DNA of 64,000 bases from a virus, in IMG/VR virus record IMGVR_UViG_3300040801_001810, positions 62,001-126,000 of that record. One strand, given 5' to 3'. How positions within the stretch are numbered: position 1 is the first letter of the stretch; each line of letters begins with the position of its first letter. Positions 2 to 19,400 of the stretch are shown here, piece after piece. The position numbers and the translations under genes are program-made. The notes under the pieces were generated by a model. That model was given only the letters and a program-made list of their open reading frames with translations, ran no database searches and was not told where the DNA came from.

Positions 2-616
2 GCATCAGCTGGGAAATATGCTAATGCTGTCTATGATGCTGCCCATGCATGGGATGTGCCTGATCTAGGACATAGGGGAATTGCAGAAGTACTATCATTA
101 TCTTTTACTAAGGTGGTTACAGCTACAGAAGGCGGGCTTATCTTAACAAATGATGATGAAGTAGCAGAAACATGTAGAGAACTAAGAAGACTGTCAGGAA
201 GACTAGAAGAAGTAAATGCATTTATTGCGCTGAGATCGATTGATTACTGGGATACTGAAGCCAAGGAGCATAGACAATATCTTGTTAATAGCTATAAAAA
301 GGCATTTGATTTTAACTTTAGTGTGCAAGAAGGAAATATAAATAACAGCGTATTTAGTATTGTATTACCTACTCCAGCCATGAGAGACAAAATACTAAAA
401 GAACTAAGTTTAAAACAAATAGAAACAAAAATATATTATGAGCCTCTTATTGATGGTTTAGAAACAACTGACTATATCTATTCACAAAGCATAGCTCTTC
501 CATTAAATAGATTCATTACAGACGAACAAATCAAAGAGATAGCAGACATAGCAAATATGGCAGTTAAAGGCTGTCCAGGAAAAGATTATCTAAATAGATA
601 CATTGGGAGAATATAA
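2..616 (+). CDS. DegT/DnrJ/EryC1-type sugar aminotransferase, 5' part missing
   Basis: This is the C-terminal half of a PLP-dependent sugar aminotransferase. The frame is open from base 2, so the gene starts left of the window and the GTG at 56 is not its true start. The reading frame shows the family's signature: an acidic-Ala-Ala-His segment (YDAAHAW) about 25 residues before SFTKVVTATEGG, whose Lys is the expected PLP Schiff-base residue, followed by a TND turn. Enzymes of this family transfer an amino group to a 3- or 4-keto nucleotide sugar in the cytoplasm. About 205 residues are visible; the family is usually 360-400. It ends in a TAATG overlap with the next gene, so the two are probably translated together as part of the glycan cassette. 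The sugar substrate cannot be told from this fragment. Confidence 0.85.
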   Translation, partial: ASAGKYANAVYDAAHAWDVPDLGHRGIAEVLSLSFTKVVTATEGGLILTNDDEVAETCRELRRLSGRLEEVNAFIALRSIDYWDTEAKEHRQYLVNSYKKAFDFNFSVQEGNINNSVFSIVLPTPAMRDKILKELSLKQIETKIYYEPLIDGLETTDYIYSQSIALPLNRFITDEQIKEIADIANMAVKGCPGKDYLNRYIGRI

Positions 617-1842
617 TGAATGTAGTATATGTACAACCTTACTACCATAATATATGGGAAGCTTTAGGTATAGGATACATAGAATCTTATTGTAGAAAAC
701 ATTATAAAGGATATTTAGAAACCTCATTCTATCAAGGATACTTTGATAACGATGATCGTATAGTAAATGCCTGTACGCACGCAAATATAGTTGCTTTCTC
801 GTGCACATCAACTGCAATAGCTCCAGCTAAGAAGCTAACTGAGAGAATAAAAAAGATTAATCCTAATGTTAAAATAGTTGTAGGCGGATGGCATGTAACA
901 GCAACTAAGCAAAAACCTGAATGGGCTGACCAAATAGTTATTGGTGAAGGAGAGAAAGCTTTTCTAAGAATACTAGAAGGGGAAGAAGCCCCTATAGTAT
1001 TAGGAGAAAAGTTACCTTTCTCAGAACTTCCTCATCCAGATAGATGCACTATAAAAAACTCTAGAACAGTAGATCTATGTGAAAAGATGATTGGTAAGAG
1101 AGTATTAAGTCTTCAATCAAATAGAGGATGCCCAATGAATTGTGCTTACTGCTCTGAAGTATGTATGACTGGTAAATTAAATAAAGCAACTAATCCTATT
1201 AGAAGCAGAGACCCTAAAGATGTTTGTGACGAATTAGAATCTCTAATCAAGATAGAGGATATAGATCAATTTAAATTTGTAGATGCTACATTTGATATAT
1301 CAGAAGAATATGTAGAAGCCTTTTGCAATGAGAAAATTAGTAGAGGAATTACTATAGAATGGGAATGCCTAGTTCATGCTGCATTTGCTACAGAAAAGAT
1401 GATGGCAAAATTAGCTGAAGCTAATTGTGTTCAGATTAATGTTGGTTGTGAAAGTGGAAGTCCTAAGGTTTTAAAACAAATACGAAAAGGCGTAACAATA
1501 GATAAAGTTAAACAAGTATTTGAGTGGGCAAAAAAGTATAATATAGGTAGACGAGCATTCTTTATCTTAGGTATGCCAGATGAAACCGAAGAAGATATTA
1601 GGATGACAGAAACTTTAGCAGATCAGCTAGATGCAGACGTAGTTGGTTTCACTATATTATGTCCTTATCCAGGCAGCGATTTCTATGATCCAATCAGACA
1701 CAAATACATTAGCTGGGATAAGACAGATGAATATGGTAATGACTTCTGGAAATCAAATCATCTAGAGAACTGGGAGCTACATAAATGGCAAGAATATCTT
1801 ACTAAGAAATACGAAAATAAACTATGCGAGAGGCAGAAATGA
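616..1842 (+). CDS. B12-binding-domain radical SAM protein
   Basis: 408-residue radical SAM enzyme of the cobalamin-binding type. Residues about 1-130 look like a B12-binding Rossmann domain: an N-terminal strand, VAFSC, a VVGGWH strand-turn and an IGEGE loop. The radical SAM core follows, with the 4Fe-4S CxxxCxxC motif at C172, C176 and C179 (RGCPMNCAYC), then the glycine-rich segment NVGCESGSPKVLKQIRKG and the ILGMPDETEED loop typical of this family. Members methylate or rearrange unreactive carbons, often on sugars, lipids or antibiotics. It starts inside the stop codon of the aminotransferase and ends overlapping the next start. By context it modifies a sugar or glycan precursor, but the reaction is not predictable. 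No truncation is seen. Confidence 0.88.
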   Translation: MNVVYVQPYYHNIWEALGIGYIESYCRKHYKGYLETSFYQGYFDNDDRIVNACTHANIVAFSCTSTAIAPAKKLTERIKKINPNVKIVVGGWHVTATKQKPEWADQIVIGEGEKAFLRILEGEEAPIVLGEKLPFSELPHPDRCTIKNSRTVDLCEKMIGKRVLSLQSNRGCPMNCAYCSEVCMTGKLNKATNPIRSRDPKDVCDELESLIKIEDIDQFKFVDATFDISEEYVEAFCNEKISRGITIEWECLVHAAFATEKMMAKLAEANCVQINVGCESGSPKVLKQIRKGVTIDKVKQVFEWAKKYNIGRRAFFILGMPDETEEDIRMTETLADQLDADVVGFTILCPYPGSDFYDPIRHKYISWDKTDEYGNDFWKSNHLENWELHKWQEYLTKKYENKLCERQK

Positions 1843-2534
1843 AAATAGCAATAGAAATTTCAGGACAACTAAGATCCTATAAAAAAACATATAAAATATT
1901 TAAAGAAAAATTTATGAATAAAGATACTGATATATTTATTCATACATGGAATAATAAAGGAATATCAACAAAAGATAGAAAGTATGTAGAAAATACTTGT
2001 TGTCTTGTTTACTCCGATAAGCCAGACGAAGAAGTAAAGCATAGTGATATTGAATCTTTATATAATCCAATAGATTTTCAAATAGAAAATTTTGATAAGA
2101 ATATGGGGTTCGAACTAAATGGAATTAGATTACCAAAGTACTTATATAGAAATGAAGAATTAGATTCAGACCAATTATCAAATTTGCCGTTGTTTTATGG
2201 AATGTGGAAAGCCAGTAAATTAAGAAGAGCCTACAAAAAAGATTACGATCTAGTAATTAGAACAAGAGCAGATCTAAATTTTTCTTTAATAAACATTAAT
2301 TTTGAAACACTAGATAAATCAAAAGTTTATGTTTTTCCTCATTTAACAAATGATAAAGTCAGTGATAAATTCGCAATTGGATGTCCTTCTTTAATGAATA
2401 TATATACAGAAGTATTCTTAAATTTACAAGAGTACTGGTACGGGAATATTAAATTAAGGGAAAGATTAAGACATTATGAATGCTTATTAAAATATCATCT
2501 AGAACAACATAATATACAGGTAAAACTAATATGA
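1839..2534 (+). CDS. ISGQLRS-type putative glycosyltransferase-like protein (paralogue 1)
   Basis: 231 residues starting at the ATG in the ATGA overlap with the radical SAM gene; an in-frame ATG 15 bases upstream lies wholly inside the previous gene and is less likely. The N-terminus reads MKIAIEISGQLRSYKKT, followed by DIFIHTWNNKG and later DLVIRTRADLNFS. A second gene at 4412 has the same three motifs in the same order (ISGLPRSFKRT, DCFISTWNPIG, DIVIRTRPDLNFF), so the two are paralogues. I associate this motif pattern with poorly characterised glycosyltransferase-like proteins in capsule and phage glycan clusters, but I cannot assign donor or acceptor. The position between a radical SAM enzyme and a GT8-like enzyme supports a role in glycan assembly. 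Confidence 0.7.
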   Translation: MKIAIEISGQLRSYKKTYKIFKEKFMNKDTDIFIHTWNNKGISTKDRKYVENTCCLVYSDKPDEEVKHSDIESLYNPIDFQIENFDKNMGFELNGIRLPKYLYRNEELDSDQLSNLPLFYGMWKASKLRRAYKKDYDLVIRTRADLNFSLININFETLDKSKVYVFPHLTNDKVSDKFAIGCPSLMNIYTEVFLNLQEYWYGNIKLRERLRHYECLLKYHLEQHNIQVKLI

Positions 2535-3235
2535 AACTAGGAATATTTACACGAGCTGATAACAGTATCAGTCCAATGACGTCAATAACACATCCAATAC
2601 TAAAAGAATACGCAAAGAGATGTAATGCTGACTTTAGATTAATTGAAGGAGATCCCCCAGTTATAACAGATGACGGACATCCACACTGGAGAATAGCTAA
2701 CTTATATAACTATTATGATGAGTATGATAGAATATTATGTATAGATTCTGATGTTTTAGTACTACCAAATTGTCCAAATCTATTTGATGAGGTACCAGAA
2801 AAATGCATCGGATCCAGCTTCGAAGATATAGGATCAAGAGCAGGCCCACGTAGACAATCAATCCAAAATATACAGAAACAATTTGGTGATATAGGCTGGA
2901 AGCAGGGATATATTAACACAGGAGTACTAGTTACATCCAAAATGCATAGAGATGTATTTACTTCAGTAGACGGTAGATGGTATACAAACTTTGGAAGTGA
3001 CGATGTACATATTGGATATAAAGCATTTAAGCTTAATTTTAAAATTCATCAGCTAAGTTATAAGTTTAATCATATGACTATGTTCTCAGAACCATGGAAC
3101 AATAACGCAGATAGATTTGAATCTTACATTATTCATTATGCTGGAAGAGGACAATTCAATCTTAGACTCGATAGAATCTCTAACATAAGAGAAGACGCTA
3201 AGAGAATAGAGGAGCTATATGAAAACAGTAAGTAA
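2531..3235 (+). CDS. GT8-like glycosyltransferase
   Basis: 234 residues. The protein has the glycogenin/LgtC-type GT-A signature: RILCIDSDVLV with the metal-binding D72-x-D74, then a YINTGVLVTS segment, and near the C-terminus a His-Tyr-Ala-Gly motif (IIHYAGRG) that in this family contributes the last metal/UDP ligand. This points to a retaining transferase that uses a nucleotide sugar and Mn2+ in the cytoplasm. It overlaps its upstream neighbour by an ATGA and its downstream neighbour by 17 bases, so it belongs to the same translationally coupled cassette. The sugar and acceptor are unknown. Family assignment is fairly secure because the DxD, the acceptor-side Asn-Thr-Gly and the C-terminal His motif all occur in order. 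Confidence 0.8.
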   Translation: MKLGIFTRADNSISPMTSITHPILKEYAKRCNADFRLIEGDPPVITDDGHPHWRIANLYNYYDEYDRILCIDSDVLVLPNCPNLFDEVPEKCIGSSFEDIGSRAGPRRQSIQNIQKQFGDIGWKQGYINTGVLVTSKMHRDVFTSVDGRWYTNFGSDDVHIGYKAFKLNFKIHQLSYKFNHMTMFSEPWNNNADRFESYIIHYAGRGQFNLRLDRISNIREDAKRIEELYENSK

Positions 3236-3764
3236 ATTATGGGAGGACTTTTATGCCAGAATAGATAATAATAAAGAGCAGGTAATAAGAGAGACAATGA
3301 CCCCTAATAGATATGCCTCTGAAGCTCAGCTGGTTTTAAATTCGATACCTGATAATATAAAGACTGTATTAGAAATAGGATGCGGATATGGGGGATTAGC
3401 TAACGAGCTATTAAAGTTAAAACCTTTCACATATACAGTCATAGATAATCCTCAAATGTTAAAGCTAACACAAGAAACTTTAGAAGATAGAGTATGTTAT
3501 ATACCAACTGATAAGTTACAATCTTCGATTACTCCTTCCTTTGACCTACTTATAACAAACAATTGTTTATCAGAAACTCCTCCTGAATACCAACTCTGGA
3601 TTGCTAATAATATTTTTCCTAAATGCGATTTTCTATTTTCAATAGATGATACTACTATGGAAGAAGAATTTAAAAAGTATTTTTTATTTTCAAAAGAGCA
3701 ATATTTAAACTATCCCAATATATTTATATTTAAAGGGGAAAGAGATGGTAGCATTAATTCATAG
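3219..3764 (+). CDS. SAM-dependent methyltransferase, putative sugar O-methyltransferase
   Basis: 181-residue class I methyltransferase. Motif I is TVLEIGCGYGGLANELL (about residues 49-65), the SAM-binding glycine loop, followed by an acidic strand end YTVIDNP. The middle of the protein has TNNCLSETPPEYQ, a segment I associate with putative sugar O-methyltransferases of polysaccharide clusters. It overlaps the preceding glycosyltransferase by 17 bases and the next gene by 20. The likely job is O-methylation of a sugar residue in the glycan built by the neighbouring enzymes. The length is short for the family, so substrate-recognition parts may be minimal. The substrate is inferred only from context. 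Confidence 0.78.
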   Translation: MKTVSKLWEDFYARIDNNKEQVIRETMTPNRYASEAQLVLNSIPDNIKTVLEIGCGYGGLANELLKLKPFTYTVIDNPQMLKLTQETLEDRVCYIPTDKLQSSITPSFDLLITNNCLSETPPEYQLWIANNIFPKCDFLFSIDDTTMEEEFKKYFLFSKEQYLNYPNIFIFKGERDGSINS

Positions 3765-4422
3765 TGGAGACAAAAACTCCTGGGTATGGAAATACTGGAA
3801 GTACTACTACGCTAAGTACTGGGATTTTAGAATACCAACAGTATTTTTATCAGAGGAAAAGGATCTTAATTGGGACCAGGTAATCAATATAAAATCTGGT
3901 ACTGGACCATGGGCCACCACACTACTAAATTCACTAGATAAAATACATACAGAATATATTATCTACATGCATGAAGACGTATTCCTCACAAATCATATCG
4001 AATATAATACTTTAATTGAATTATATAAGTTGATGAAAACAAATGACTTACAATTAATTAAATGTAGTGGACATGATGCTGGATGGCGTGAAGCAGAAAA
4101 TAACCTACCAAAAACAGACATGAAAGTAAATGAAGAGCCAATTTACCTATATCCAAATCATATAGATTATTTAGTCAGTCATCAAATTTCTATTTGGAAC
4201 AAAGAATTTTTTAAGTCTACACTTAAGTGCGGTGAATCTCCATGGCAACATGAACTAGAAGGAACAAAAAGGCTACGAGCACGTAACATTTCTATACATG
4301 CATTTTGTAGTGAAGAAAACGAACCAAACTCGAGACCAATCCCCCACATAGAAGCAGTTAGAGCAGGGAAACCTAGAACCAAACTAGCAATAGAAATGTT
4401 TAAGAAGGTAGATGATGATTAA
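3745..4422 (+). CDS. putative glycosyltransferase, family uncertain
   Basis: 225 residues. A GGGGAAAG ribosome-binding site precedes the start and lies inside the end of the methyltransferase gene. The N-terminal half alternates short beta strands and helices as in GT-A folds, and EYIIYMHEDVFLTN resembles the acidic metal-binding strand end of such enzymes. A Trp/Tyr-rich N-terminus (KYWKYYYAKYWDF) follows the first strand. I cannot place it in a numbered family. Context (a GT8-like enzyme and a methyltransferase upstream, an ISG-motif protein downstream) supports a transferase or glycan-binding role. Confidence 0.55.
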   Translation: MVALIHSGDKNSWVWKYWKYYYAKYWDFRIPTVFLSEEKDLNWDQVINIKSGTGPWATTLLNSLDKIHTEYIIYMHEDVFLTNHIEYNTLIELYKLMKTNDLQLIKCSGHDAGWREAENNLPKTDMKVNEEPIYLYPNHIDYLVSHQISIWNKEFFKSTLKCGESPWQHELEGTKRLRARNISIHAFCSEENEPNSRPIPHIEAVRAGKPRTKLAIEMFKKVDDD

Positions 4423-5146
4423 AGCAGCCGTATGTATATCAGGATTACCAAGATCGTTTAAAAGAACCCATAAAATGCTAGTAGATAATGTACTATCTGC
4501 ATTTGATAAGGTAGATTGTTTTATTAGTACATGGAATCCAATTGGAGGGGACTTAGGTAGATCAAACTCTAGCCATCATGATGGAACTGCTAAAGAGTTA
4601 ATTGATTTATATAATACAAAGCTATATAAAATAGAAGACTATGATTCTAATATGCAAAATAAACTATTAGATAAAATAGGTCGTTCTGCATTAAGAAACG
4701 CAACACTAGCTATGTTTTATAAGATAGAAGACGTTAATAACTTAAGACTTCAGTATGAAAAAAACAATAATGTTAAGTATGACATAGTTATTAGAACTAG
4801 ACCTGATCTTAACTTCTTTAACAAGATATCTCAGGACGAAATCAATGATGTTCTTACAAATGGCGGTATATATATGCGAAGAAATTGTGAAGTATTCAAA
4901 GATGCCTGCGGAATAATAATCAATGATTGTTTTGCATTTGGCCGACCAGAAGAAATGACTACCTACTCAAATATATATAGTAATCTAAGAAAAACATTGA
5001 ATGATCCAAATATAATATGGAATAAAAAACATAGGCTAGGTGGTGATATTAGTCCAGAGAACGTATTTAGATGTTATCTACTTAATAACAATCTAAATCT
5101 TAAATGCTCAAGTATTAAACATAATGTCAAACGGGATGGAGAGTAA
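4412..5146 (+). CDS. ISGQLRS-type putative glycosyltransferase-like protein (paralogue 2)
   Basis: 244 residues, paralogous to the gene at 1839-2534. Shared motifs in order are CISGLPRSFKRTHKM at the N-terminus, CFISTWNPIGG, and YDIVIRTRPDLNFF near the middle. The start is one of two adjacent ATGs (4412 or 4415) behind GAAGG. It overlaps the previous gene by 11 bases and ends in a TAATG with the next. The conserved Arg-Thr-Arg-x-Asp-Leu motif may be a binding or catalytic site, but no function is established by sequence alone. Two diverged copies in one cassette suggest two related steps, such as addition of successive residues. Confidence 0.68.
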   Translation: MMIKAAVCISGLPRSFKRTHKMLVDNVLSAFDKVDCFISTWNPIGGDLGRSNSSHHDGTAKELIDLYNTKLYKIEDYDSNMQNKLLDKIGRSALRNATLAMFYKIEDVNNLRLQYEKNNNVKYDIVIRTRPDLNFFNKISQDEINDVLTNGGIYMRRNCEVFKDACGIIINDCFAFGRPEEMTTYSNIYSNLRKTLNDPNIIWNKKHRLGGDISPENVFRCYLLNNNLNLKCSSIKHNVKRDGE

Positions 5147-5835
5147 TGTTAAATCATTTTTTCTACGAGCTAAAAGATAAATATAAGGGACAATCAGTTG
5201 CAGTATGTGGGAACGGCCCAACATTTAATGAATTTGATGCAACAAAAAAAGTAGTTACATTTGGTTGTAATCAACATGTTAAGTGTGACTGGATAGACTT
5301 TGACTACTACTTCATTGGTGATGCTGAATCCCCTAGAAAAGGATACAACAACAATCCAGAACTATATCATGATTACCTAATTAATAAGCACCCAAAAGGC
5401 AATTATATCAGAATAAACGGATATACACCAAACACAGCCAGGTGTGCCCAAGTAAAAAGAGATATACCAACTTGTAATTATTATATAGCAGATAAAATGT
5501 TTGTAGATGAACATACTATGTCACTAAATCCTTGTGAATCTATGGCTGTTGGAGCAAGTATTGTATTTGATAGTTTACAGGTAGCATTATATACTAGACC
5601 AAAAAATTTATATCTAGTTGGAATGGACTGCACATTAAACTTAGGCACATTTGTAGACGAAACAACTAACTCTACTAATATAACTGACTCTAATAATTTA
5701 GCTAATATACATTGGATGGATGTAAAGAAATTTATTACTAGACATTACCCTGACATTAATGTATATTGTATTAATCCAGTCAACATGAGACTGTTTGAAG
5801 AAAAAACTATGGAGGAAATAGTTGAAAACATTTAA
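5146..5835 (+). CDS. DUF115 / sialyltransferase-like protein
   Basis: 229 residues. The N-terminus has VAVCGNGPTFNEFD, the nucleotide-binding loop seen in DUF115/MptE-like proteins and in GT42-type bacterial sialyltransferases. It is followed by FGCNQHVK and by a DYYFIGDAE strand, then a C-terminal NLYLVGMDC strand typical of the same fold. Such proteins transfer sialic-acid-like sugars or bind nucleotide substrates. The CMP-sugar synthetase gene downstream (7314-7973) would supply a CMP-activated donor, which makes a sialyltransferase-like role attractive but unproven. It overlaps its neighbours by 1 and 14 bases. Confidence 0.6.
   Translation: MLNHFFYELKDKYKGQSVAVCGNGPTFNEFDATKKVVTFGCNQHVKCDWIDFDYYFIGDAESPRKGYNNNPELYHDYLINKHPKGNYIRINGYTPNTARCAQVKRDIPTCNYYIADKMFVDEHTMSLNPCESMAVGASIVFDSLQVALYTRPKNLYLVGMDCTLNLGTFVDETTNSTNITDSNNLANIHWMDVKKFITRHYPDINVYCINPVNMRLFEEKTMEEIVENI
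5812..5816 (+). promoter_or_regulatory. Shine-Dalgarno site deciding the TTG start
   Basis: GGAGG sits five bases before the TTG at 5822 and inside the end of the upstream gene. It is the best ribosome-binding match near this start and supports use of the rare TTG codon. Confidence 0.65.
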
Positions 5836-6448
5836 GATACAACAATATGCCACTGGTGGAATGATATCAGACATAATAGATGAAGAGAATATAGAAAACG
5901 CTCAAAGAAAAAATAATCAGTTCATTCCAACACTAGACAATACAAAGATTTGTGGTAGAATTAAGACAGTTACTCTAAGAGAAGGTAATGAGCCATCAAT
6001 TAGTGTAGATGATATATTTAATTCAACAATGGCAGGAGACGTACTAGTAATTGAAGGATCAATGAAGTGGGCTTACTGGGGCAGAATAATGTCATCGTTT
6101 GCAAAAATGAAATGCCTTGCAGGAACAGTCATATTAGGATGTAGCAGAGACAAAGCAGATATAGCTGAACTAGATTATCCTGTCTATGCTAAGGATTTCT
6201 TTGGTGTTGATATTAAAAATAGAGGATACGTAGCAGAAATAGGATCAATAATTAATTTTGAAGGAATAACTTATAGACCAAATGATTATCTATTCATAGA
6301 TCAAGAACTACTAACAACTCTACCAGCAAATAGCATTGATTTAATATATAATAAAGTAAATAAACTTAAGCTAAAAGAAGACGAATTAGTTTTTAAAATC
6401 TTTCAAGAAAGAGACGTAAATCTTTTAGTAAAGGAACATAACTTATGA
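5822..6448 (+). CDS. RraA / HMG-aldolase-like protein, TTG start
   Basis: 208 residues. The middle matches the RraA/4-hydroxy-4-methyl-2-oxoglutarate aldolase family: GDVLVIEGSMKWAYWGRIMS, then a hydrophobic Gly turn and the catalytic-loop pattern GCSRDKADIAELDYPVYAKD, where Arg-Asp is the conserved metal/substrate pair. The start is TTG, chosen because GGAGG lies 6-10 bases upstream (5812-5816) and the next in-frame ATG would remove the first strand; the 14-base overlap with the previous stop fits the cassette style. Family members are aldolases, decarboxylases or, in RraA itself, RNase E inhibitors. In a sugar cassette an aldolase/lyase acting on a keto-acid is more plausible than RNA-decay control, but both remain open. 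Confidence 0.7.
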   Translation: MKTFKIQQYATGGMISDIIDEENIENAQRKNNQFIPTLDNTKICGRIKTVTLREGNEPSISVDDIFNSTMAGDVLVIEGSMKWAYWGRIMSSFAKMKCLAGTVILGCSRDKADIAELDYPVYAKDFFGVDIKNRGYVAEIGSIINFEGITYRPNDYLFIDQELLTTLPANSIDLIYNKVNKLKLKEDELVFKIFQERDVNLLVKEHNL

Positions 6449-7317
6449 AAAAACCAGAAATAATTTCAATAGACAAAGCAACATCAAGCATAACAGACTT
6501 TGCGAATGTACTACTAAGAGTAGAGACAACATCAAAGTGTAATAGATCATGTTGGTTCTGTCCACATAGCGAACTTAAAAGACCTAAAGAAAACATGAAC
6601 AGAGACTTGTATAATAAGATAATTAATGATGCAAGTGAAGCTGGAATTAACTCTATGGACATTAGAAATTTTGGTGAACCTTTACTAGATAAAGATCTAG
6701 AAAACAAAATTAAATATGCTAAGGATAGAGGATTTAAGTATGTTGAAATTTATACAAATGGAATACTATTAACTCCAGAAAGATATTCATCTTTATGTGA
6801 AGCAGGAATAACTAGAATAAGAACTAGTTTAATCACAGACCAAGAATATAATACAACTCTTCTAAAAAATCTTGCAGACATTAAACCAAAAGAAAATATA
6901 ATATCAATAGAGCTAATAAATATGCCTGAGTCAATGGGAAATTATATCACCATCCTAAGAAAATTAATTGATCTAGAAGTAACTAAAGTTCGTATTGTCC
7001 CACCTCATAATTGGGGAGATTGGACAACAGAAAACGTAGATAACTCTGGTAAGTGGTGTCATAGATTATGGAGTTCTGTTAATGTATTAACCAATGGTCA
7101 AGTAGTACTATGTTGTATGGACTATGAAGGAATATATGATCTAGGTAATTGTAATGATCAATCAATTAAAGAAATACTTAACTCAGATAAGTTTAAAGAA
7201 TATAGACAAAATCATCTATCTGGAAAACTAGAACCAATTTGTGAAGGATGTCTTAAACCACAACAGGATGAAGCGGGATTACCAATTGAAGTTTTTCTAA
7301 AAGGAATCGAATTATGA
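6445..7317 (+). CDS. radical SAM protein with SPASM-like C-terminus
   Basis: 290 residues. The radical SAM 4Fe-4S motif is CNRSCWFC (C32, C36, C39), followed by the glycine motif MDIRNFGEPLLD and a conserved YTNGILL strand. The C-terminus has a cysteine cluster (VVLCCMDYEG, a later GNC, then ICEGCLKP) typical of SPASM/twitch domains that hold auxiliary iron-sulfur clusters. Relatives carry out peptide maturation, dehydrogenation or sugar chemistry. It has ATGA overlaps at both ends, so it is part of the same coupled run. By context it could be a sugar dehydrogenase or epimerase-type radical enzyme; the substrate is unknown. It is the second radical SAM enzyme of the cassette and is not a paralogue of the B12-type one. 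Confidence 0.85.
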   Translation: MKKPEIISIDKATSSITDFANVLLRVETTSKCNRSCWFCPHSELKRPKENMNRDLYNKIINDASEAGINSMDIRNFGEPLLDKDLENKIKYAKDRGFKYVEIYTNGILLTPERYSSLCEAGITRIRTSLITDQEYNTTLLKNLADIKPKENIISIELINMPESMGNYITILRKLIDLEVTKVRIVPPHNWGDWTTENVDNSGKWCHRLWSSVNVLTNGQVVLCCMDYEGIYDLGNCNDQSIKEILNSDKFKEYRQNHLSGKLEPICEGCLKPQQDEAGLPIEVFLKGIEL

Positions 7318-7973
7318 AAAAAGTAGTAGCATATATCCACGCTAAGGGTGAAAGCACAAGACTTCCCAATAAAAATATGAAGCTATTAAATGGAAAGCCT
7401 CTTGTATCCTACGCAATAATAGCTGCAATGGAAGCATCACTAGTAACAGAAGTATGTGTAGACAGTGACTCAGAAGAAATCCTAGATGTAGGAAGAAACC
7501 TAGGAGCTAGAGTACTTAAAAGACCAAAGGAGTTAGCTAATAATAACATATCTGGCGATGATTTAATTTGTTGGCAAGCATATAATGCAATAGACTCGGA
7601 CTGTATAGTACAGGTTGTCCCAACATGTCCTTTTACAAAGTCGTCCAGCATCAATAACGCAATAGCATTAATGGAACAGGATCCTTGCCTAACATCAGTA
7701 ATAGGTGTTAGAAAAGAACCATTATATACTTGGGTAAACGGAAACCCATCATATAGAAAGGGAGGAAGATTACCAACAAGTAATACTCTTCAAAGAACTA
7801 TATATGAAACAATGGGACTTTATGTCACAAGGACTAAAAATATTATTACAGAAAAAGTTAGAGTAACCAACGCTTGTCAGCTACTAGAGTTATCAGCAAT
7901 AGAAGCTATTGATATCAACACTGAAGAAGACTTTGAATTTGCAGAAATAGTAGCAAGAGGAATGTCTAAATGA
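7314..7973 (+). CDS. CMP-sugar synthetase (acylneuraminate cytidylyltransferase family)
   Basis: 219 residues with the NeuA-type nucleotidyltransferase signature. The N-terminal strand-loop IHAKGESTRLPNKNMKLLNGKPLV carries the CTP-binding Arg/Lys residues. SDSEEIL and VPTCPFTKSSSI follow, the latter matching the LQPTSPLR-type loop of the family. The expected reaction is CTP plus a sialic-acid-like or 3-deoxy sugar giving the CMP-sugar and pyrophosphate, in the cytoplasm. The usual Arg-Gly-Gly-Ser of the first loop is replaced by Lys-Gly-Glu-Ser, so substrate preference may differ. It links logically to the sialyltransferase-like gene at 5146. It has ATGA overlaps on both sides. Confidence 0.85.
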   Translation: MKKVVAYIHAKGESTRLPNKNMKLLNGKPLVSYAIIAAMEASLVTEVCVDSDSEEILDVGRNLGARVLKRPKELANNNISGDDLICWQAYNAIDSDCIVQVVPTCPFTKSSSINNAIALMEQDPCLTSVIGVRKEPLYTWVNGNPSYRKGGRLPTSNTLQRTIYETMGLYVTRTKNIITEKVRVTNACQLLELSAIEAIDINTEEDFEFAEIVARGMSK

Positions 7974-8617
7974 ATTTTACCTTTGGAATAATAACGGCTG
8001 GATCAGATCCAACAATTAGTACTATTGCTACTACAATACGTGAGTTATGTATTCCAAACTATGAAATTATAGTTGTAGGTAACTGCAACCTAAAAGCTAA
8101 TGATATTAAAGTTCTAGATTTTGACGAGAGCAAAAAGAGAAGCTGGATTACCAAGAAGAAAAACATGATAACAGAAGCAGCAAGTTATGAAAATATTGTG
8201 TATCTACATGACTATATAGCATTTGATAAAGATTGGTATAAAGGCTTTAAACTATTTGGAAATGACTTCAAAGTAGTAACTAATATTATACTAGATAGTA
8301 AAGGAAACCGATTCAGAGACTGGGTTGTAGAATACAAAGGAGAAGTTCGCTTTATACCATATGATGTAACAGACCTAAGTAGATTCATGTACATTTCTGG
8401 TGCATACTTTGTAGCAAAAAAGGACTTCATGTTAGCTAACCCATTAAATGAAAAGCTTTCTTGGGGAGAAGGAGAAGACTGTGAGTGGTCTTATAGAGTC
8501 AGAAATATAACAGACTTTAAAATTAATCCGCACTCAAAAGTTTTGTTCATTAAACTCAAACAAAATAATACAATATATGCATCGCTAAACGACATTGCTG
8601 AAATGAGAAAACTATGA
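7970..8617 (+). CDS. GT2-like glycosyltransferase
   Basis: 215 residues. The start FTFGIITAGSDPTISTIATT matches the first strand and loop of family 2 glycosyltransferases. NYEIIVVGNC is the second strand, and NIVYLHDYIAFDKDWY stands where the DxD strand usually lies; the metal motif here is less canonical. Near the C-terminus, SWGEGEDCEWSYRVR matches the GExxD-W-R acceptor-side motif common in GT2 and galactosyltransferase-like proteins. It probably adds a sugar to the growing glycan in the cytoplasm. It has ATGA overlaps with both neighbours. Confidence 0.75.
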   Translation: MNFTFGIITAGSDPTISTIATTIRELCIPNYEIIVVGNCNLKANDIKVLDFDESKKRSWITKKKNMITEAASYENIVYLHDYIAFDKDWYKGFKLFGNDFKVVTNIILDSKGNRFRDWVVEYKGEVRFIPYDVTDLSRFMYISGAYFVAKKDFMLANPLNEKLSWGEGEDCEWSYRVRNITDFKINPHSKVLFIKLKQNNTIYASLNDIAEMRKL

Positions 8618-9954
8618 TTAAGCTAATTATATTTGACTTAGATGGGGTTCTAATTGAGTCAAAAGATATACACTATAAAGCACTTAATAAAGCTTTAGAA
8701 GAATTTAATTATCAACCAATTTCATATAAAGATCACATATCAAAGTTCGATGGAAAATCAACTAGGACAAAACTAACTTTGCTAAATCTAAGTGAAGACA
8801 TAGATGATATTAATTCTTTAAAACAAATGTTTACAAAAGAATTACTAAAAAAACATATCGAACCTAAACAGTATACAATTGATCTAATAGTAAAATTAAA
8901 GAATAAGGGGTATAAGATTGCTTGTGCTTCTAATTCTGTAAGAGAGACAATAGATATATCCCTAGAAAAACTAGGTCTCTTACATCTATTTGATTATTCT
9001 ATATCTAATCAAGACGTTAGACAATCAAAACCTAATCCAGAAATGTATCTAAAGTGTATGTTACATTTTGGTGTTGGACCAAGAGAAACATTAATAATAG
9101 AAGATTCGTATGTAGGAAGACAAGGAGCATTTAATTCTGGAGCAGCAGTGTGTGAAGTAAACAATCCAGATGATGTTGTTTTTAGAAGAATAAAAAGTGC
9201 AATTCGAAAAGCAGAGGGGAAAAAGCTAATGTGGAGAGACGAGAAATTAAATATATTAATACCAATGGCTGGAGCAGGTAGTAGATTTGCCAATGCAGGT
9301 TACACGTTTCCTAAACCATTAATTGAGGTTAATGGAAAACCAATGATACAAGTAGTTAAAGATAATTTAGCAATGGATGGACAATTTATATTCATTGTTA
9401 ATAGTGAACATTATACTAAATATAATCTAGAGTATATGTTAAATGCTATTTCTCCTAACTGTAAAATTATAACTGTTAATACCTTAACAGAAGGAGCGGC
9501 TTGCACAACACTACTAGCTAAAGAACTAATAGATAATGATTGTCAATTACTAATAGCTAACTCGGATCAATATATAGACTGGAATAGCTCTGAATTTATG
9601 TACTCTCTTCAAGGAGAACATGTTGATGGAGGAATTCTTACATTTGAAAATAGTCACCCTAAATGGTCATATGCTAAAACAAAAGACGGTTTTGTAACTA
9701 CTGTCCAGGAAAAGAAAGTTATATCTAATGAAGCAACAGTAGGTATATACCATTGGAAAAAGGGATCAGATTATGTTAAATATGCAGAACAGATGATTAC
9801 TAAAGATATTAGAGTTAATAATGAGTTCTACGTAGCACCTGTATATAATGAAGCAATAGAAGATGGCAAGAAATTTAAGACATACAAAGTAGACGCAATG
9901 TATGGTCTAGGTACGCCAGAAGATCTAACAACTTTTTTAAAGAAAAAGCAATGA
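8614..9954 (+). CDS. HAD phosphatase fused to sugar nucleotidyltransferase
   Basis: 446 residues with two catalytic domains. Residues 1-205 are a beta-phosphoglucomutase-like HAD hydrolase: motif I IIFDLDGVL with D8 and D10, motif II CASNS, Lys in SKPNPEMY, and motif IV IIEDSYVG. Residues about 212-446 are a nucleotide-sugar pyrophosphorylase-like domain: LIPMAGAGSRF (GxGxRF), TFPKPLIEVNGKPMI with the catalytic Lys, and LIANSDQYID with the metal-binding Asp. All key residues of both halves are present. The chain could dephosphorylate or isomerise a sugar phosphate and then activate the sugar with an NTP. It is translationally coupled on both sides. It is a real fusion, since no stop or frameshift separates the domains. 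Confidence 0.87.
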   Translation: MIKLIIFDLDGVLIESKDIHYKALNKALEEFNYQPISYKDHISKFDGKSTRTKLTLLNLSEDIDDINSLKQMFTKELLKKHIEPKQYTIDLIVKLKNKGYKIACASNSVRETIDISLEKLGLLHLFDYSISNQDVRQSKPNPEMYLKCMLHFGVGPRETLIIEDSYVGRQGAFNSGAAVCEVNNPDDVVFRRIKSAIRKAEGKKLMWRDEKLNILIPMAGAGSRFANAGYTFPKPLIEVNGKPMIQVVKDNLAMDGQFIFIVNSEHYTKYNLEYMLNAISPNCKIITVNTLTEGAACTTLLAKELIDNDCQLLIANSDQYIDWNSSEFMYSLQGEHVDGGILTFENSHPKWSYAKTKDGFVTTVQEKKVISNEATVGIYHWKKGSDYVKYAEQMITKDIRVNNEFYVAPVYNEAIEDGKKFKTYKVDAMYGLGTPEDLTTFLKKKQ

Positions 9955-10550
9955 TACATTGTATAGGAAATAGTCACGTAAGAGCATTTTCAGCAAGCAA
10001 CATAGCAGCTCATCACATTGGACCAGTAATAGCCTATAATTTTTTAGAACATCATTTCTTTAAAATAAAAGGACATTTACGATTAATATCTAATAATGAT
10101 TATGTTTCTTTAATAGCTGGAGAAGTAGATTGTAGATATCATTTACCGCTACAAGCTGATACACAAGGGAAAACAGATATAGAAGTTACAACTGACTGTG
10201 TTGATAGATTCTTTAGATGTTTTAAGATATTAAAAGATGAAAACTATAACCTAATTGCATTTGCTACACACCCAACCACTACGGAACCTCATGATATGAG
10301 TGACCCTACAAATAAACCTATATATTCCTCTTGCATTCGACGTAACAATATATGTATATTATGGAACAGAAGATTAAAAGAGCTATGTGATAATGAAGAT
10401 ATACCATTTATATCGATATACGAAAAGCTAGTTGATGAAAACAACATAACTAAGATGGAATACTTTGAAGATTATTGTCACTTAGATGGAGAGAAAGTTA
10501 AACCTTTAATAGAAGAAGCTTTAAGAGATGCACACATTAAAATTGTCTGA
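9951..10550 (+). CDS. SGNH-type hydrolase/acyltransferase-like protein
   Basis: 199 residues. The N-terminal IHCIGNSHVRAF has the Gly-Asn-Ser-His form of SGNH block I, with S8 as candidate nucleophile. GEVDCRYH (57-64) fits block III, and DYCHLDGEKV supplies the C-terminal Asp-x-x-His pair (D174, H177). This points to an esterase or O-acyl transfer enzyme, in this setting probably acting on acetyl or similar groups of a glycan. It starts in an ATGA overlap with the fusion gene. No signal peptide or membrane segment is visible, so it should be cytoplasmic. Confidence 0.65.
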   Translation: MIHCIGNSHVRAFSASNIAAHHIGPVIAYNFLEHHFFKIKGHLRLISNNDYVSLIAGEVDCRYHLPLQADTQGKTDIEVTTDCVDRFFRCFKILKDENYNLIAFATHPTTTEPHDMSDPTNKPIYSSCIRRNNICILWNRRLKELCDNEDIPFISIYEKLVDENNITKMEYFEDYCHLDGEKVKPLIEEALRDAHIKIV

Positions 10551-10551
10551 T

Positions 10552-10857
10552 ATGATTAAAGGTTGGTTCGTAGGCAACTTCGATCAGACCGCCCTCAAAA
10601 CAGATGCTTGTGAAGTAGCAGTTAAGAATTATACTGCTGGTGACTACGACCAAGCACACTACCATAAAATAGCAACAGAAGTAACGGTTATATCTAAAGG
10701 TATGGTTCAAATGAATGAAATGGACTATGTTGCAGGAGATATAATTGTTATTGAACCAAACGATGTAACAGATTTCAAAGCACTAACAGACGCTCAAACA
10801 GTAGTAGTAAAAATTCCTGGCGAATTGGATGATAAGTATGAAGTTGATCGCTCATAG
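10552..10857 (+). CDS. small cupin-domain protein
   Basis: 101 residues from the ATG at 10552; an in-frame ATG at 10528 would add eight residues and overlap the previous gene, and neither has a strong ribosome-binding site. The fold is a single cupin: HYHKIATEVTVISKG carries His-x-His and Glu ligands of motif 1, and GDIIVIEPNDVTDF is motif 2. The second-motif His is not obvious, so metal binding is uncertain. Small cupins in polysaccharide clusters serve as sugar epimerases, isomerases or binding proteins. It overlaps the next gene. Confidence 0.7.
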   Translation: MIKGWFVGNFDQTALKTDACEVAVKNYTAGDYDQAHYHKIATEVTVISKGMVQMNEMDYVAGDIIVIEPNDVTDFKALTDAQTVVVKIPGELDDKYEVDRS

Positions 10858-11296
10858 GGGAAATATCAAAGGTTCTTCTGTAAAAGAAAATACAATAGAC
10901 CATATACTAACGGCACTAGATTTAAAATTAGATGTTGAAGTCGATGTGTGGTGTATTAATAAAATATTTTGGCTGGGTCACGATAAACCTAAAGAAGTGA
11001 TGCCTAAATGGTTACTAGATAAATATAAAAATCAACTTTGGTTTCATGCAAAAGATATTTCTACACTGGATAAGCTTTTAGAGTTTGAAACAACTTGTTT
11101 TTTTCATAACATCGACGATTGTACTCTAACATCTAATGGATATATTTGGACTTACCCAAATAAAGAACTAGTAGGAAAACGATCAATTGCTGTTATTAAT
11201 AACAAATTAGATTTATATAGCAAGACAGACCTTAAAAAATGTTATGCTATCTGTACTGATTACCCTAAACAACTAAAAGAGGAATTAAATGATTAA
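10838..11296 (+). CDS. short GDPD-like phosphodiesterase
   Basis: 152 residues from the ATG at 10838; an ATG nine bases upstream is possible. The N-terminus KLIAHRGN, then KENTIDHI, DVEVDVW and LGHDKPK follow the glycerophosphodiester phosphodiesterase pattern: His-Arg-Gly, Glu-Asn-Thr, Glu-x-Asp metal ligands and the second catalytic His. Family members are normally about 230-300 residues, so this is a shortened TIM barrel that ends around YAICTDYPKQL. It may hydrolyse glycerophosphodiesters or a phosphodiester-linked glycan substituent. It overlaps the cupin gene by 20 bases and the next gene by 8. Confidence 0.7.
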   Translation: MKLIAHRGNIKGSSVKENTIDHILTALDLKLDVEVDVWCINKIFWLGHDKPKEVMPKWLLDKYKNQLWFHAKDISTLDKLLEFETTCFFHNIDDCTLTSNGYIWTYPNKELVGKRSIAVINNKLDLYSKTDLKKCYAICTDYPKQLKEELND

Positions 11297-12443
11297 TATT
11301 TATGCCCCAATTAACAACCTTGGCTATGGTATACATGCCAACAATATGATAAAAGCTTTATATGAAGCTGGAGAAGACATGAACCTATCAACAATAGGAC
11401 AAGTACAAAGCGATCCATACTTTGAACCATTCTGGAAGCCTGCAGCAGAGAATTTAATTAACTTTGACTCTAAGGCACCATCACTATTTATTTTCCATGA
11501 TGAGCATAGTAATAGATCTTGTGGCTCACCAAACCTTGTTTTTTCTGTATTCGAGACAACTAAACTAAAACTATTATCTCAAAAAATGTTAAACAATGGT
11601 CCTGCTGATATAGTATTAACCACAACTAAAGAACATAAAGAGTTATTATCTACACAGATAGATAAACCAATTCATGTAGTTAATGAAGGAGTAGACGATA
11701 GTATCTTTAATACCATACCAGTAGACCCTTATATTGATACTGGTAAGTTCACATATGTCACTGTTGGTAAACAAGAAGAGCGTAAGAACACAGACATGAT
11801 TATTAAAGAGTTCTTAACTACTATGAAAGACAAAGAAGTAGCCCTAATATGTCATTCTTTTAATATGTTCCTACATACAGATCAAAAGGAACATCCTTTT
11901 ACTAATCTATCATGTTGGACAGGAATCAATCCTATCTCTCATAACTTTGAGTATAAAGGATTCGATGGAAAAGCTCATAAATTCACATATGATAAGTGTG
12001 ATATTTATTTTACGGCACCAGTTATACCCACCCCTCAGATGGGTTCTCTATATCATTCAGCTAATGTTGGTATCCAAATCAGTAGAGCTGAAGGCTGGGA
12101 TCTACCTCTAACAGAGATGCTTGCCACAGGAATGCCTGTAATAGCCTCTAAATGCATTGGACATAATGAGTACCTAGATAGTGCTCCAGAAGACCAACAG
12201 CGCTTAAACGTAGCCCTAGATGGTCTAGAAGAAGCCAAGGACAATATGTGGTTTAAAGATGGAGGAGTAGGTGCTTGGGGAAAGGTTAATCCTGTTGATC
12301 TAAGAGAGAAACTAATTACTACTTTTGATAATCAAGAGATATATACTGGTAAAAACGACATAATCGCAGACTATATGAGTGAGAATTTTTCCTGGAAAAA
12401 ATCCGTTGTAAAATTAATGGAGATAATTAACGCTGCTAAATAA
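11289..12443 (+). CDS. GT4-like (GT-B fold) glycosyltransferase
   Basis: 384 residues, the last gene of the glycan cassette. The C-terminal Rossmann domain has FTYVTVGKQEERKNTDMII (donor-domain start with Lys), and SRAEGWDLPLTEMLATGMPV, the E-x7-E motif of GT4 enzymes that holds the nucleotide-sugar donor. VNEGVDDSIFN marks the hinge between the two domains. The N-terminal half (NNLGYGIHANNM) is the acceptor domain. This is a retaining transferase, probably adding a hexose. The start is preceded by AGAGGAA. A short gap of 31 bases separates it from the next gene, the first clear break in the run. Confidence 0.88.
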   Translation: MINIYAPINNLGYGIHANNMIKALYEAGEDMNLSTIGQVQSDPYFEPFWKPAAENLINFDSKAPSLFIFHDEHSNRSCGSPNLVFSVFETTKLKLLSQKMLNNGPADIVLTTTKEHKELLSTQIDKPIHVVNEGVDDSIFNTIPVDPYIDTGKFTYVTVGKQEERKNTDMIIKEFLTTMKDKEVALICHSFNMFLHTDQKEHPFTNLSCWTGINPISHNFEYKGFDGKAHKFTYDKCDIYFTAPVIPTPQMGSLYHSANVGIQISRAEGWDLPLTEMLATGMPVIASKCIGHNEYLDSAPEDQQRLNVALDGLEEAKDNMWFKDGGVGAWGKVNPVDLREKLITTFDNQEIYTGKNDIIADYMSENFSWKKSVVKLMEIINAAK

Positions 12444-12764: not shown

Positions 12765-13307
12765 ATGGGACAGGGAGAATCCAAAAAGACTGACAGTAAA
12801 AAAATTGTTTACATCGTAGGAGAAGTAAATGAGGGAACCACAGAACAAATCTTAAGAGAAGTAGTTGAAACAAATTGGAAGGAAGATTCAATTAAAGAGT
12901 TAGACATTTATATTGTATCTGAAGGAGGCTACTTAAGAGACTGTTTTGCAATTATAGATCTTATTACTCTACTAAGAAAAGAGAAAAATATCACTGTCAA
13001 TACTTATGGACTAGGTGAGATAGCTAGTGCAGGATTCTTCCTTTTCCTTTTAGGAGATAAACGATTTTTATATCCAAGTTGCCGAGTATTCGTACATGAA
13101 CACATAACCATTAATGATGAAAAAACATATGGCGAAAGATTAAAAGCTGATAGGACAGAAGAAAAAGAAGTATACGATAACTACGTTAGTTTTACAGCAA
13201 GTAGATTAGATATCTCTATAACAAAAGCTAAAAACCTATTAAAGAAAAATAAATGGCTGACTAAAAAAGAAATAGAGAAGCATAATATTAAAAATGTGGG
13301 GATATAA
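12765..13307 (+). CDS. ClpP-like serine peptidase with altered third catalytic residue
   Basis: 180 residues with the ClpP/crotonase fold. The oxyanion glycines lie in IYIVSEGGYLRDC, the nucleophile is S88 in GEIASAGFFL, and H111 lies in CRVFVHEHI, both aligned with the ClpP Ser and His. Where ClpP has the catalytic Asp (DRF-L), this protein reads KKNKWLTKKEI, giving N162. Thus the classical triad seems to be Ser-His-Asn. Phage ClpP-like proteins are known as prohead proteases, but here the gene is away from any capsid gene and among small host-modulating genes. It could be a weak peptidase, a decoy ClpP subunit or an adaptor of host Clp. Confidence 0.82.
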   Translation: MGQGESKKTDSKKIVYIVGEVNEGTTEQILREVVETNWKEDSIKELDIYIVSEGGYLRDCFAIIDLITLLRKEKNITVNTYGLGEIASAGFFLFLLGDKRFLYPSCRVFVHEHITINDEKTYGERLKADRTEEKEVYDNYVSFTASRLDISITKAKNLLKKNKWLTKKEIEKHNIKNVGI

Positions 13308-14340: not shown

Positions 14341-14673
14341 ATGAGTATGTTTTTAAGCACAGATCTATCTGAAATGATAGACGATTTACAATCATTATTT
14401 GGATATCATTATAAGTATGATGTTAAACTAAAACCAGTATCAGAAATCCAGCTAGAATTGCCTGGGGTAGCAAAAGAGTGTATAAAATCCCACGTAAAGA
14501 ATGAAATATTAGTAGTTCAGTGGTTAGATAGACATCAACATGAACAAAGAAAAGAATACTATGTCGGAAAGATAGATGCAACAGAAGCTACATATAAAGA
14601 CGGACTTTTAAGTATTAAAATTACTAAACAAAAAGAATCCGAAGGTGTGGAGATAAAAATTAAAGGGGCTTAA
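14341..14673 (+). CDS. Hsp20 / alpha-crystallin-type small heat shock protein
   Basis: 110 residues. QLELPGVAKECIKSHVKNE is the alpha-crystallin strand pair with the LPG turn, followed by DGLLSIKITKQKE, which matches the conserved G-x-L-x-I strand near the C-terminus. Phage-encoded Hsp20 proteins are known in cyanophages and other large myoviruses, and are thought to protect proteins during infection. AGGAG lies eight bases before the start. The stop codon lies in the loop of the bidirectional terminator that closes the plus-strand block. Confidence 0.82.
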   Translation: MSMFLSTDLSEMIDDLQSLFGYHYKYDVKLKPVSEIQLELPGVAKECIKSHVKNEILVVQWLDRHQHEQRKEYYVGKIDATEATYKDGLLSIKITKQKESEGVEIKIKGA

Positions 14674-14683
14674 AGCCCCTTTT
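14662..14683. terminator. bidirectional Rho-independent terminator between converging operons
   Basis: AAAGGGGCT (14662-14670) pairs with AGCCCCTTT (14674-14682) around a TAA loop, followed by T on the plus strand and flanked by A-rich sequence on the other side, so it works in both directions. The loop TAA is also the Hsp20 stop codon. The minus-strand operon ends five bases further on. Confidence 0.9.
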
Positions 14684-16228: not shown

Positions 16229-16496
16229 TATTTTTCTCCAAATATCTAATTTGATTATAGTGTGTTCTATATATGTAATCAAATTTAAGCATAGTTAATA
16301 CTCGCTGATTTATAGAACTAGGAAGGCCGCTTGGACTAATAACATATGCTGTCCCAGACGAATCTATTTGTTCTAATATACCAGAGTAATGTGTTTGACC
16401 TTCTTTTTCAAAGCCAAGTAGCTCAATTAAATTATCATAGGCCAATAATAATTTATCATTAATTTCTTGTGATAATAAGCTATACGAATTTCTCAT
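16221..16496 (-). CDS. small structural-operon protein, function unknown
   Basis: 91 residues: a helical N-terminus (QEINDKLLLAYDNLIELLGF) and a short beta hairpin (GTAYVISPSGLP). The start is in a TAATG overlap with the 1138-residue gene. Possibly a connector or a chaperone-like adaptor for neighbouring fibre proteins; no family recognised. Confidence 0.55.
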   Translation of the reverse strand: MRNSYSLLSQEINDKLLLAYDNLIELLGFEKEGQTHYSGILEQIDSSGTAYVISPSGLPSSINQRVLTMLKFDYIYRTHYNQIRYLEKNNG

Positions 16497-19400
16497 TATG
16501 TGTCCCTATTTACTATAAATTTAAGAGAGTCAACTCTTGGAGCTAGACTGCCTTCTTCATCACTCTGTAATTCTAGTTTATATAAGAATCTACTATTAGT
16601 ATCGTCTATAGAAGATACTTTCCTGTATGAAATAGAGTAGAAAGCTGGAAGATTCTCAGCTGTAGGGTAAAATAAAAATCCATTATTATCATCAGTAACA
16701 GAAACATATCCAGTTGAACTATATTCAGCTATATCTGAAGCTGTTGCTTGAGCAAGCCAAGCTCCGCACCCAACTCTAGAATCTGTATACAAGGCTCTAG
16801 GATCATAATCACCAGAATATAATAGATATGTATGTGTAGGACTAAAATCTATATTCAAAGGATGACCAAAAGTACTATGATGATTATAAAAAGATACCCC
16901 AGTATAGTTAGGATAGTCTGGTAAAACAGCACCTTGATTCCAAGTATTATCGATAACACTTCTATCTCTTTTGTATATAACGCCACTAGAATCAGACCCA
17001 GTTGTGTAAATTATTGGTCCTAATGTGGTCCATCCTGAAACACCAGAATAAGTAATTGTGCCTTCTCTAATCCAGTGACCAATATTTTTAGTTCTTGCAT
17101 TATTACTTAGATAATATCTTTTATTAATAGAATCAAAATAGTATCCAGGAAATATATCCTTTGATGGAGCCTTTACTACAACAAACTTTTCTCCTCGGGA
17201 ATTCTGTTGTATAGCAGCACGATTGTTATTATTCATAGGAGTATCGTATATTAGAGTACTTAAATCTACCATTGATATTGCTGTAATTTTGGATACTAAT
17301 TTAACATAGGGAGTCACTGATATAGTACTCTCTTGGAAACGATCACTTTCATATGGAACCCAGTTATTAGCACAGAAACCAGTATCTTCATCACTAGCAC
17401 AAAAGATTGTAACTTTAAAATGTTGATCACCAGTAGTATTTTCATCTAGGGCAAAGGCTATTGTAAATAGATTTCCATCAGGATCAATAGTATCTATCTT
17501 TCCTGTCTGTAGATTCTCTACAGTTATAGTCTTAATAATAGGAATATTTCTTTGATCTGTTACATTATTGTTCTCTATTGTAACTTGAGGATCAGTTGCT
17601 CCTGGTGATATAATAGCATATCCAGTCCAAGTAGATAGATAATTGTTTCTAATTCTATATTGATATTTATAGTCAAAAGTAACTGTAGTTGGATCCAAGT
17701 CACCCCTAGTGGAATCTAAATTACTTAGTTTAATTCCAGTTAAGGTACCATCCGTGTACTGAAGCTGATCTTTGTATTCTGAATCTTCTAAAACCACAGA
17801 GGTACCATTAACCTTAATCTCAGATATTGAATCTACTACATATTCCTCATTAGTTCTTAGATTATCAGTTATTTTAAGTGTATAACCAGACCAAGTAGAA
17901 CCAGTACCAGAAGGAGTAACATTATTTTTAACTCCTATCTCGTCTATCCAGCTAGATTTATAGCTCCAAGCAAAGTTAACAGGATAATATTTATCGTTTC
18001 CTATAACAGGTCTTTCTTGATAGGCAAATAATTTAACAGTATTGTCAATAATAACATCATTATATCCAAACTTATATATTTTATAGTAAGGAATATTATT
18101 GAAATAATAGTCGGGTAAGTTCTCTTCTGCTAAAACAAGTCCACTTATATTTATAGTTGATAATCCAGTAGGAGTCACATAGTCAGAATATGGTCTCCAC
18201 CATCCATTAATAGATGAATCGTATTCACCAAATCTAATAGTTCTACCAGTAGAACCCACATAACCAAAAGGATATCCTGCATTATACTCGTAGCCAATCC
18301 ATTGTCCAGAATAAAGCACATTAGCTGTAATAGCAGGGTTTAATGTTCCGTCTATATCTTCAATATCATCCCAATCAATACTCTCTAAGGCAGCTACATC
18401 TACTCCAGATATCAAGACACCACTATCTACTAGAGGCTCTAAGGTAGCCCAGTCTGGGTTTGATGTATTAACCCATCCACTTACATATACACCAGAGTAA
18501 TCATTATCACCAAATAATAGGTAAGAATCTATAGTAAAGATCGAATTATTTAATTTATCATGTTTAATTGTATTATCAAACTCTACTTTTTCTGGTATTT
18601 TACTTCCTTTTTCTCCTTTAAATTGGAGAGGAATCCAGTTAAAATCTACATTTTTATATAATTCTACACCGCTCACAGTATTTTCTGCATTCCATATATC
18701 TGATAAGAATACTTTACCAGAATAGGTAGGAGAGAATTCATATATGTATGGTGACTTTGGATCAACTAAGTTTCCACGACTATCTAAAAACCCACCACTA
18801 ATAGTCATATCCTGAGCGACATATAAACTAGCTGCACAATTAGTTGGAAGCTGATATCTACCAGATGCCTCAATAGTAGCTACTACTGGGACTTCGTTAC
18901 TATATTTATCAAAGGTAATTGGATTAGAATAAAGAACTGCTTTCTTTCTAGATGTTCCACGAGATATGGCTAGATTATTAATGACATATTGATATGTATT
19001 TGTTTCTGGAATATCAGGAGCATTTTTAATAAAGTCTAATTTGATGTGTGTTGTTTTAGTTTTAGGAAATGAGAATTTAACTTTATCATTTTTAATATCT
19101 TGAATAGAATTATTCTTAACGTCTTTCCATTGGAACCCGTCTTTATAATATAACCTAATAGAACCATGAGATATATCAGAATCAACATCTAAAGTTACAG
19201 CATTTATATCAATTTCTCGAGCATCAGCTGTAAGTTGTAGACTGACGGAAGTAACCAGTCTAGTTGGTCCATTGGTTGTAATTTTATAGAATAGTTGACG
19301 AGGATCCTGCTGATCAAGCATAGTCCCAGCATCTGTAGAACCAACATAACCATTCTCTATAATACGAGAATAGTTTTCTACTACATTAAACTCTAGTTTG

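Follow-up and report, generated by a model that had tools for sequence, protein, structure and literature searches.

A phage glycan gene cluster of a familiar type and its candidate new branch towards CMP-activated sugars

The virus record analysed here carries a genuine phage glycan cluster that looks complete and belongs to a known type, and one of its biosynthetic branches is a candidate for a new one. We read this block, tentatively and with slightly less than even confidence, as a glycan pathway that the phage encodes and that works in the cytoplasm, its most likely target being a structural protein of the phage at the time of assembly. The case bears on the targets of the sugar clusters that are common, but unexplained, in large aquatic phages: a pathway that is self-contained and cytosolic would suggest virion proteins as the target, not the host envelope.

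The window (the whole 64,000-nucleotide stretch that was analysed, bases 62001-126000 of a virus record of 230,193 bases) opens with a segment, positions 2-12443, that is filled by 17 plus-strand ORFs according to the ORF listing and translations (Table 1). A reading made from the sequence alone had counted sixteen genes; the first of the 17 is cut by the window edge and is the 3' part of a whole 326-aa gene at record positions 61636-62616. The overlap coupling described in that reading is seen throughout, with 16 of 16 junctions overlapping, by 1-29 bases, on a single strand. The whole block is larger, extending over record positions 55,828-74,443 (~25 ORFs) and beginning ~6 kb before the window, and its upstream part adds GT4-like and GT9-like transferases, a GNAT protein, a weak GT-D-like protein and uncharacterised proteins. 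No structural gene lies within the block, which counts against a virion-protein acceptor.

Table 1. Features of the glycan block and its downstream boundary (window coordinates)
Feature	Position	Strand	Evidence
DegT/DnrJ/EryC1/StrS sugar aminotransferase, 3' part	2..616	+	PF01041 E=1e-34, whole protein
B12-binding radical SAM enzyme	616..1842	+	PF02310 + PF04055; CxxxCxxC motif seen
phrog_13607 protein, probable transferase	1824..2534	+	phrog_13607 E=2e-22
GT8-like glycosyltransferase	2531..3235	+	PF01501 E=1e-4, just under cut-off
Class I SAM-dependent methyltransferase	3219..3764	+	PF13649 E=4e-6
Possible GT2-like transferase (weak)	3745..4422	+	PF13712 E=0.02
Second phrog_13607 protein	4412..5146	+	PF25072 E=1e-6; phrog_13607 E=8e-16
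MptE-like protein, candidate transferase for CMP-sugars	5146..5835	+	PF01973 sub-threshold
RraA-like (pyruvate aldolase superfamily) protein	5822..6448	+	PF03737 E=4e-24; G-x-x-RD motif
Radical SAM/SPASM enzyme	6445..7317	+	PF04055 + PF13186; CxxxCxxC motif seen
CMP-sugar (PseF/NeuA-type) cytidylyltransferase	7314..7973	+	PF02348 E=5e-19
GT-A fold glycosyltransferase	7970..8617	+	model pLDDT 93; PDB fold matches
Beta-phosphoglucomutase-like HAD + NDP-sugar pyrophosphorylase fusion	8614..9954	+	PF13419; phrog_3980 E=2e-74
Probable SGNH-type acyl esterase/transferase	9951..10550	+	GNSH...DYCH motifs in translation; motif reading alone
Cupin-like protein	10528..10857	+	phrog_24762 E=5e-36; Cupin_2 E=0.07
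Compact GDPD-like phosphodiesterase	10829..11296	+	HR..EN..ExD..GHD invariant, 22/22 aligned relatives
GT4-type glycosyltransferase	11289..12443	+	PF13692 E=2e-7; phrog_2170 E=5e-24
Two-way terminator-like hairpin, plus-strand block vs opposing tail operon	14662..14682	.	terminator scan

The gene content, gene order, domains and intact motifs of the block bear out the view of the sequence-only reading that this is a multi-gene glycan pathway, far beyond a single seroconversion gene. Pfam confirms the DegT aminotransferase, the B12-binding radical SAM enzyme (which many B12-rSAM NCBIfam models also match, all below their own cut-offs), the radical SAM/SPASM enzyme and the SAM methyltransferase and, for sugar activation and transfer, the CTP_transf_3 protein, the HAD plus NTP-transferase protein and the GT4-type transferase. 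The GDPD-like enzyme is identified by catalytic motifs that are invariant in all 22 aligned relatives, the cupin scores below the Pfam threshold and matches phrog_24762 strongly, and the SGNH acyl enzyme is probable, with GNSH...DxxH-like motifs read from the sequence as its sole basis. Two genes had gone unnamed, those for the RraA-like aldolase (5822-6448) and the sub-threshold MptE-like protein (5146-5835). The proteins at 1824..2534 and 4412-5146 belong to one family, phrog_13607.

Much of this gene set has parallels elsewhere. Relatives of the HAD-nucleotidyltransferase fusion (8614-9954) occur in at least 588 IMG/VR stretches, at 54-55% identity in cyanophages S-CAM9, B23, S-PRM1 and others, and in SAR11, SAR86, Legionella, Prochlorococcus and other genomes. 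A GDPD-like gene lies near the fusion in 63 of the 80 best viral loci and 46 of the 80 best bacterial loci; these loci were picked by similarity to the fusion alone, and the fractions should not be taken as frequencies in phages at large. Homologues of the SGNH-like protein are found in three of the collected loci (L091, L050 and L051). The first of these, IMG/VR contig IMGVR_UViG_3300032053_006749, has the same five genes in a different order (HAD-nucleotidyltransferase, GT-A, cupin, SGNH-like and GDPD-like), along with several glycosyltransferases, a methyltransferase, an epimerase and a DegT aminotransferase, but no match to the RraA, radical SAM or cytidylyltransferase genes. Glycan clusters of aquatic myophages (cyanophages S-CAM9, B23 and S-8S56, and pelagimyophages) likewise share the HAD-nucleotidyltransferase fusion and its GDPD-like neighbour and carry several glycosyltransferases and epimerases. 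The block has the marks of these clusters, namely several glycosyltransferases, sugar-nucleotide enzymes and the fusion with its GDPD-like neighbour. Many glycosyltransferases have been described in pelagimyophages (PMC7029224) and in moraphages, large aquatic phages with four core groups of putative glycosyltransferases (PMC12619734). Judged from the reordered contig, the hundreds of contigs with the HAD-nucleotidyltransferase and GDPD-like module and the cyanophages, a long glycan block is ordinary in large aquatic phages.

The pairing of an RraA-type aldolase with a cytidylyltransferase sets the block apart from the aquatic myophage clusters. Among 50,697 phage records, the RraA-like protein (PDB relatives 3k4i and 3c8o) has no match and the cytidylyltransferase one weak match; more distant cytidylyltransferases, placed elsewhere in the tree, occur in a few IMG/VR loci. 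The PseF model matches the phage cytidylyltransferase with E=1e-26, still below that model's cut-off. In two bacteria, the cytidylyltransferase and RraA domains form a single fused protein (L176, G031:C28:16261-17556, and L202:8988-10283; 53% identical to each other). The L202 fusion adjoins flagellin, FliD and FliS genes and the other one sits in a neighbourhood of the envelope-polymer type. Both domains are present in the phage as separate genes, with the radical SAM gene between them. The phage cytidylyltransferase shares 38% and 34% identity with its fused counterparts, compared with at most ~33% for the others collected, and joins them in the tree with moderate support (81/86), whereas in the RraA tree the phage protein is not placed with the fused RraA. 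A third bacterial locus contains a cytidylyltransferase gene that overlaps a gene for an aldolase of a different family (HpcH/HpaI); an MptE-like protein is encoded close by, as are flippase-like and polymerase-like proteins. Given the two fusions and this third locus, the comparison suggests that an aldolase coupled to a cytidylyltransferase may be a recurrent way to a CMP-activated keto acid.

Among the closest known systems are the CMP-nonulosonic acid (Pse/Leg) pathways with Maf flagellin transferases, which share with the block the DegT aminotransferase, GNAT, PseF-like cytidylyltransferase and MptE-like protein, the last with a below-cut-off match in the phage. Unlike these pathways, the phage lacks a NeuB-type synthase (no PF03102 match in the record; controls positive), and for this reason we set aside a plain Pse/Leg pathway. 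What is new here is a probable CMP-keto-acid branch without NeuB, and the earlier suggestion of a rare sugar, plausible in itself, can be narrowed to a putative CMP-activated keto acid. No published account of an RraA-cytidylyltransferase pair was found among open-licence papers; should the pairing hold, it would be an undescribed route to CMP-activated acidic sugars, common to bacteria and a phage. The full chain of events, in which the phage would make a CMP-activated 2-keto-3-deoxy sugar acid with an RraA-type pyruvate aldolase that replaces the PEP-dependent NeuB/Kdo-type synthases, and would then use soluble enzymes to attach it directly to the proteins of its own virion, appears rather unlikely as a whole.

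The pathway that we infer, including its substrates, keto-acid chemistry and acceptor and whatever advantage it may give the phage, would consist of a CMP-sugar branch and an NDP-sugar branch. In the CMP-sugar branch, the RraA-type aldolase would form (or trim) a 2-keto acid sugar, the cytidylyltransferase would turn it into a CMP-sugar, and the radical SAM/SPASM enzyme encoded between the two may modify the sugar. The HAD domain would rearrange or dephosphorylate the sugar phosphate of the NDP-sugar branch, the fused nucleotidyltransferase would activate it, and the aminotransferase, GNAT, methyltransferase, B12-binding radical SAM and SGNH enzymes would trim the sugar. Several soluble glycosyltransferases would link the sugars and pass them to a cytosolic acceptor.

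Maf proteins carry a PF01973-type domain. The candidate for such a transferase in the block, the MptE-like protein, scores 22.9 bits against PF01973 (cut-off 34.6) and is 23% identical over 171 aa to an over-threshold MptE-like protein from a bacterial O-antigen-type locus; its single-sequence structure model is of low confidence (pLDDT 38.5), and no MptE-like relatives were found in plasmids. In L202, a 617-aa gene next to flagellin was considered as a Maf gene because of where it lies, but it does not match PF01973 and is not counted as Maf here. For the GT-A glycosyltransferase (7970-8617), the best PDB matches of the model are polypeptide GalNAc-transferases (TMq ~0.7), which may hint at a protein acceptor, and only hint, because the GT-A fold is widespread. 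There are precedents: in Maf-dependent flagellin glycosylation, a CMP-sugar is moved to protein in the cytoplasm (PMC4065374), and the mycobacteriophage capsid and tail tube carry glycans, as reported in PMC12619734.

No flippase of the Polysacc_synt family (PF01943) was detected in the whole record (controls positive), and a simple hydropathy scan of record positions 2001-226000 found no ORF with four or more predicted membrane segments, in a record that may be a fragment. Neither the flippase and polymerase of a Wzx/Wzy O-antigen cluster nor, by the simple hydropathy scan, the membrane-embedded flippase and transferase of Gtr seroconversion were found. Because no phage-encoded export machinery was found, a cytosolic acceptor, that is, a virion or fibre protein, is favoured over autonomous modification of the envelope. 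Of the three fates proposed from the sequence alone, those on the virion or its fibres thus gain and the autonomous envelope fate loses, use of the host's export machinery being possible.

Such use is the main rival to the virion-protein reading, and we rank it somewhat lower, at about one chance in three. The cluster would alter the surface polysaccharide (O-chain or capsule) of the infected cell and block superinfection, with the phage giving activated sugars and transferases, and a lipid carrier, flippase and ligase of the host exporting the product. The HAD-nucleotidyltransferase and GDPD-like module is common to bacterial loci, flippase-like and polymerase-like genes accompany the MptE-like protein and the cytidylyltransferase of the third bacterial locus, and the glycosyltransferases of pelagimyophages have been interpreted in print as modifying the host O-chain (PMC7029224). 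The absence of a detectable phage flippase, or of any protein with at least four membrane segments, speaks against this route. Known phage seroconversion clusters usually bring membrane components of their own.

In favour of the virion-protein reading, we counted the run of overlapping sugar-pathway genes, the two bacterial fusions (one with flagellin genes beside it) and the third bacterial locus, the negative NeuB, flippase and membrane-segment searches, the precedents, and the terminase and baseplate genes on the record. Counted against it were the published interpretation of the similar pelagimyophage genes, the sub-threshold PF01973 match and poor model of the MptE-like protein, the moderate support for the cytidylyltransferase grouping, the RraA tree without a phage-fusion group, and the position of the block next to replication genes and facing the tail operon, from which its expression may precede that of the virion proteins.

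The same position, after replication genes, would suit a third possibility, that the sugars are placed on phage DNA as protection from nucleases. DNA hypermodification by virus-encoded glycosyltransferases has been described (Pyle 2024, as cited in PMC12619734). However, this reading is weakened because the record contains no member of the thymidylate synthase/dCMP hydroxymethylase family (no PF00303 match; controls positive), and the gene content of the block goes far beyond what DNA glucosylation requires. We consider DNA modification unlikely, with a small probability.

Phage hallmarks on the record include terminase, a baseplate wedge protein, and replication and tail genes. Upstream of the block, on the same strand, are genes for a primase-helicase and RtcB; downstream, small ORFs, a ClpP-like gene and a GIY-YIG gene are followed by the opposing tail operon. 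Three terminator-like sites were found, compared with 1.0 expected in shuffles. The arrangement could in principle be a mis-assembly that joins a glycan cluster and a tail operon from two organisms, and the block-tail junction was not found again on any other contig, nor did viral-contig scans, which reach close relatives only, yield any close relatives of the tail protein 16496-19912, the primase-helicase or the two radical SAM enzymes. Nevertheless, the codon usage of the block correlates at r=0.988 with that of the replication genes next to it and at r=0.95-0.97 with that of the tail, head and other genes (0.95 for tail), the G+C content is even, and the small ORFs, ClpP-like and GIY-YIG genes lie between block and tail, with the two-way terminator closing both operons. 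Neither codon usage nor gene order indicates a chimera, which is very improbable.

Several other genes deserve mention. The ClpP-like protein directly after the block (window 12765-13307) matches head maturation proteases weakly. On the minus strand, at window 16496-44619, the tail operon encodes several large proteins (646-1171 aa) with no Pfam or PHROG matches. The ORF at record positions 47180-48001 reads like a putative RNA polymerase sigma factor, and a 102-aa ORF at record positions 213843-214151 has a prepilin-like N-terminus (MKNKGFTLIEV), here in a phage.
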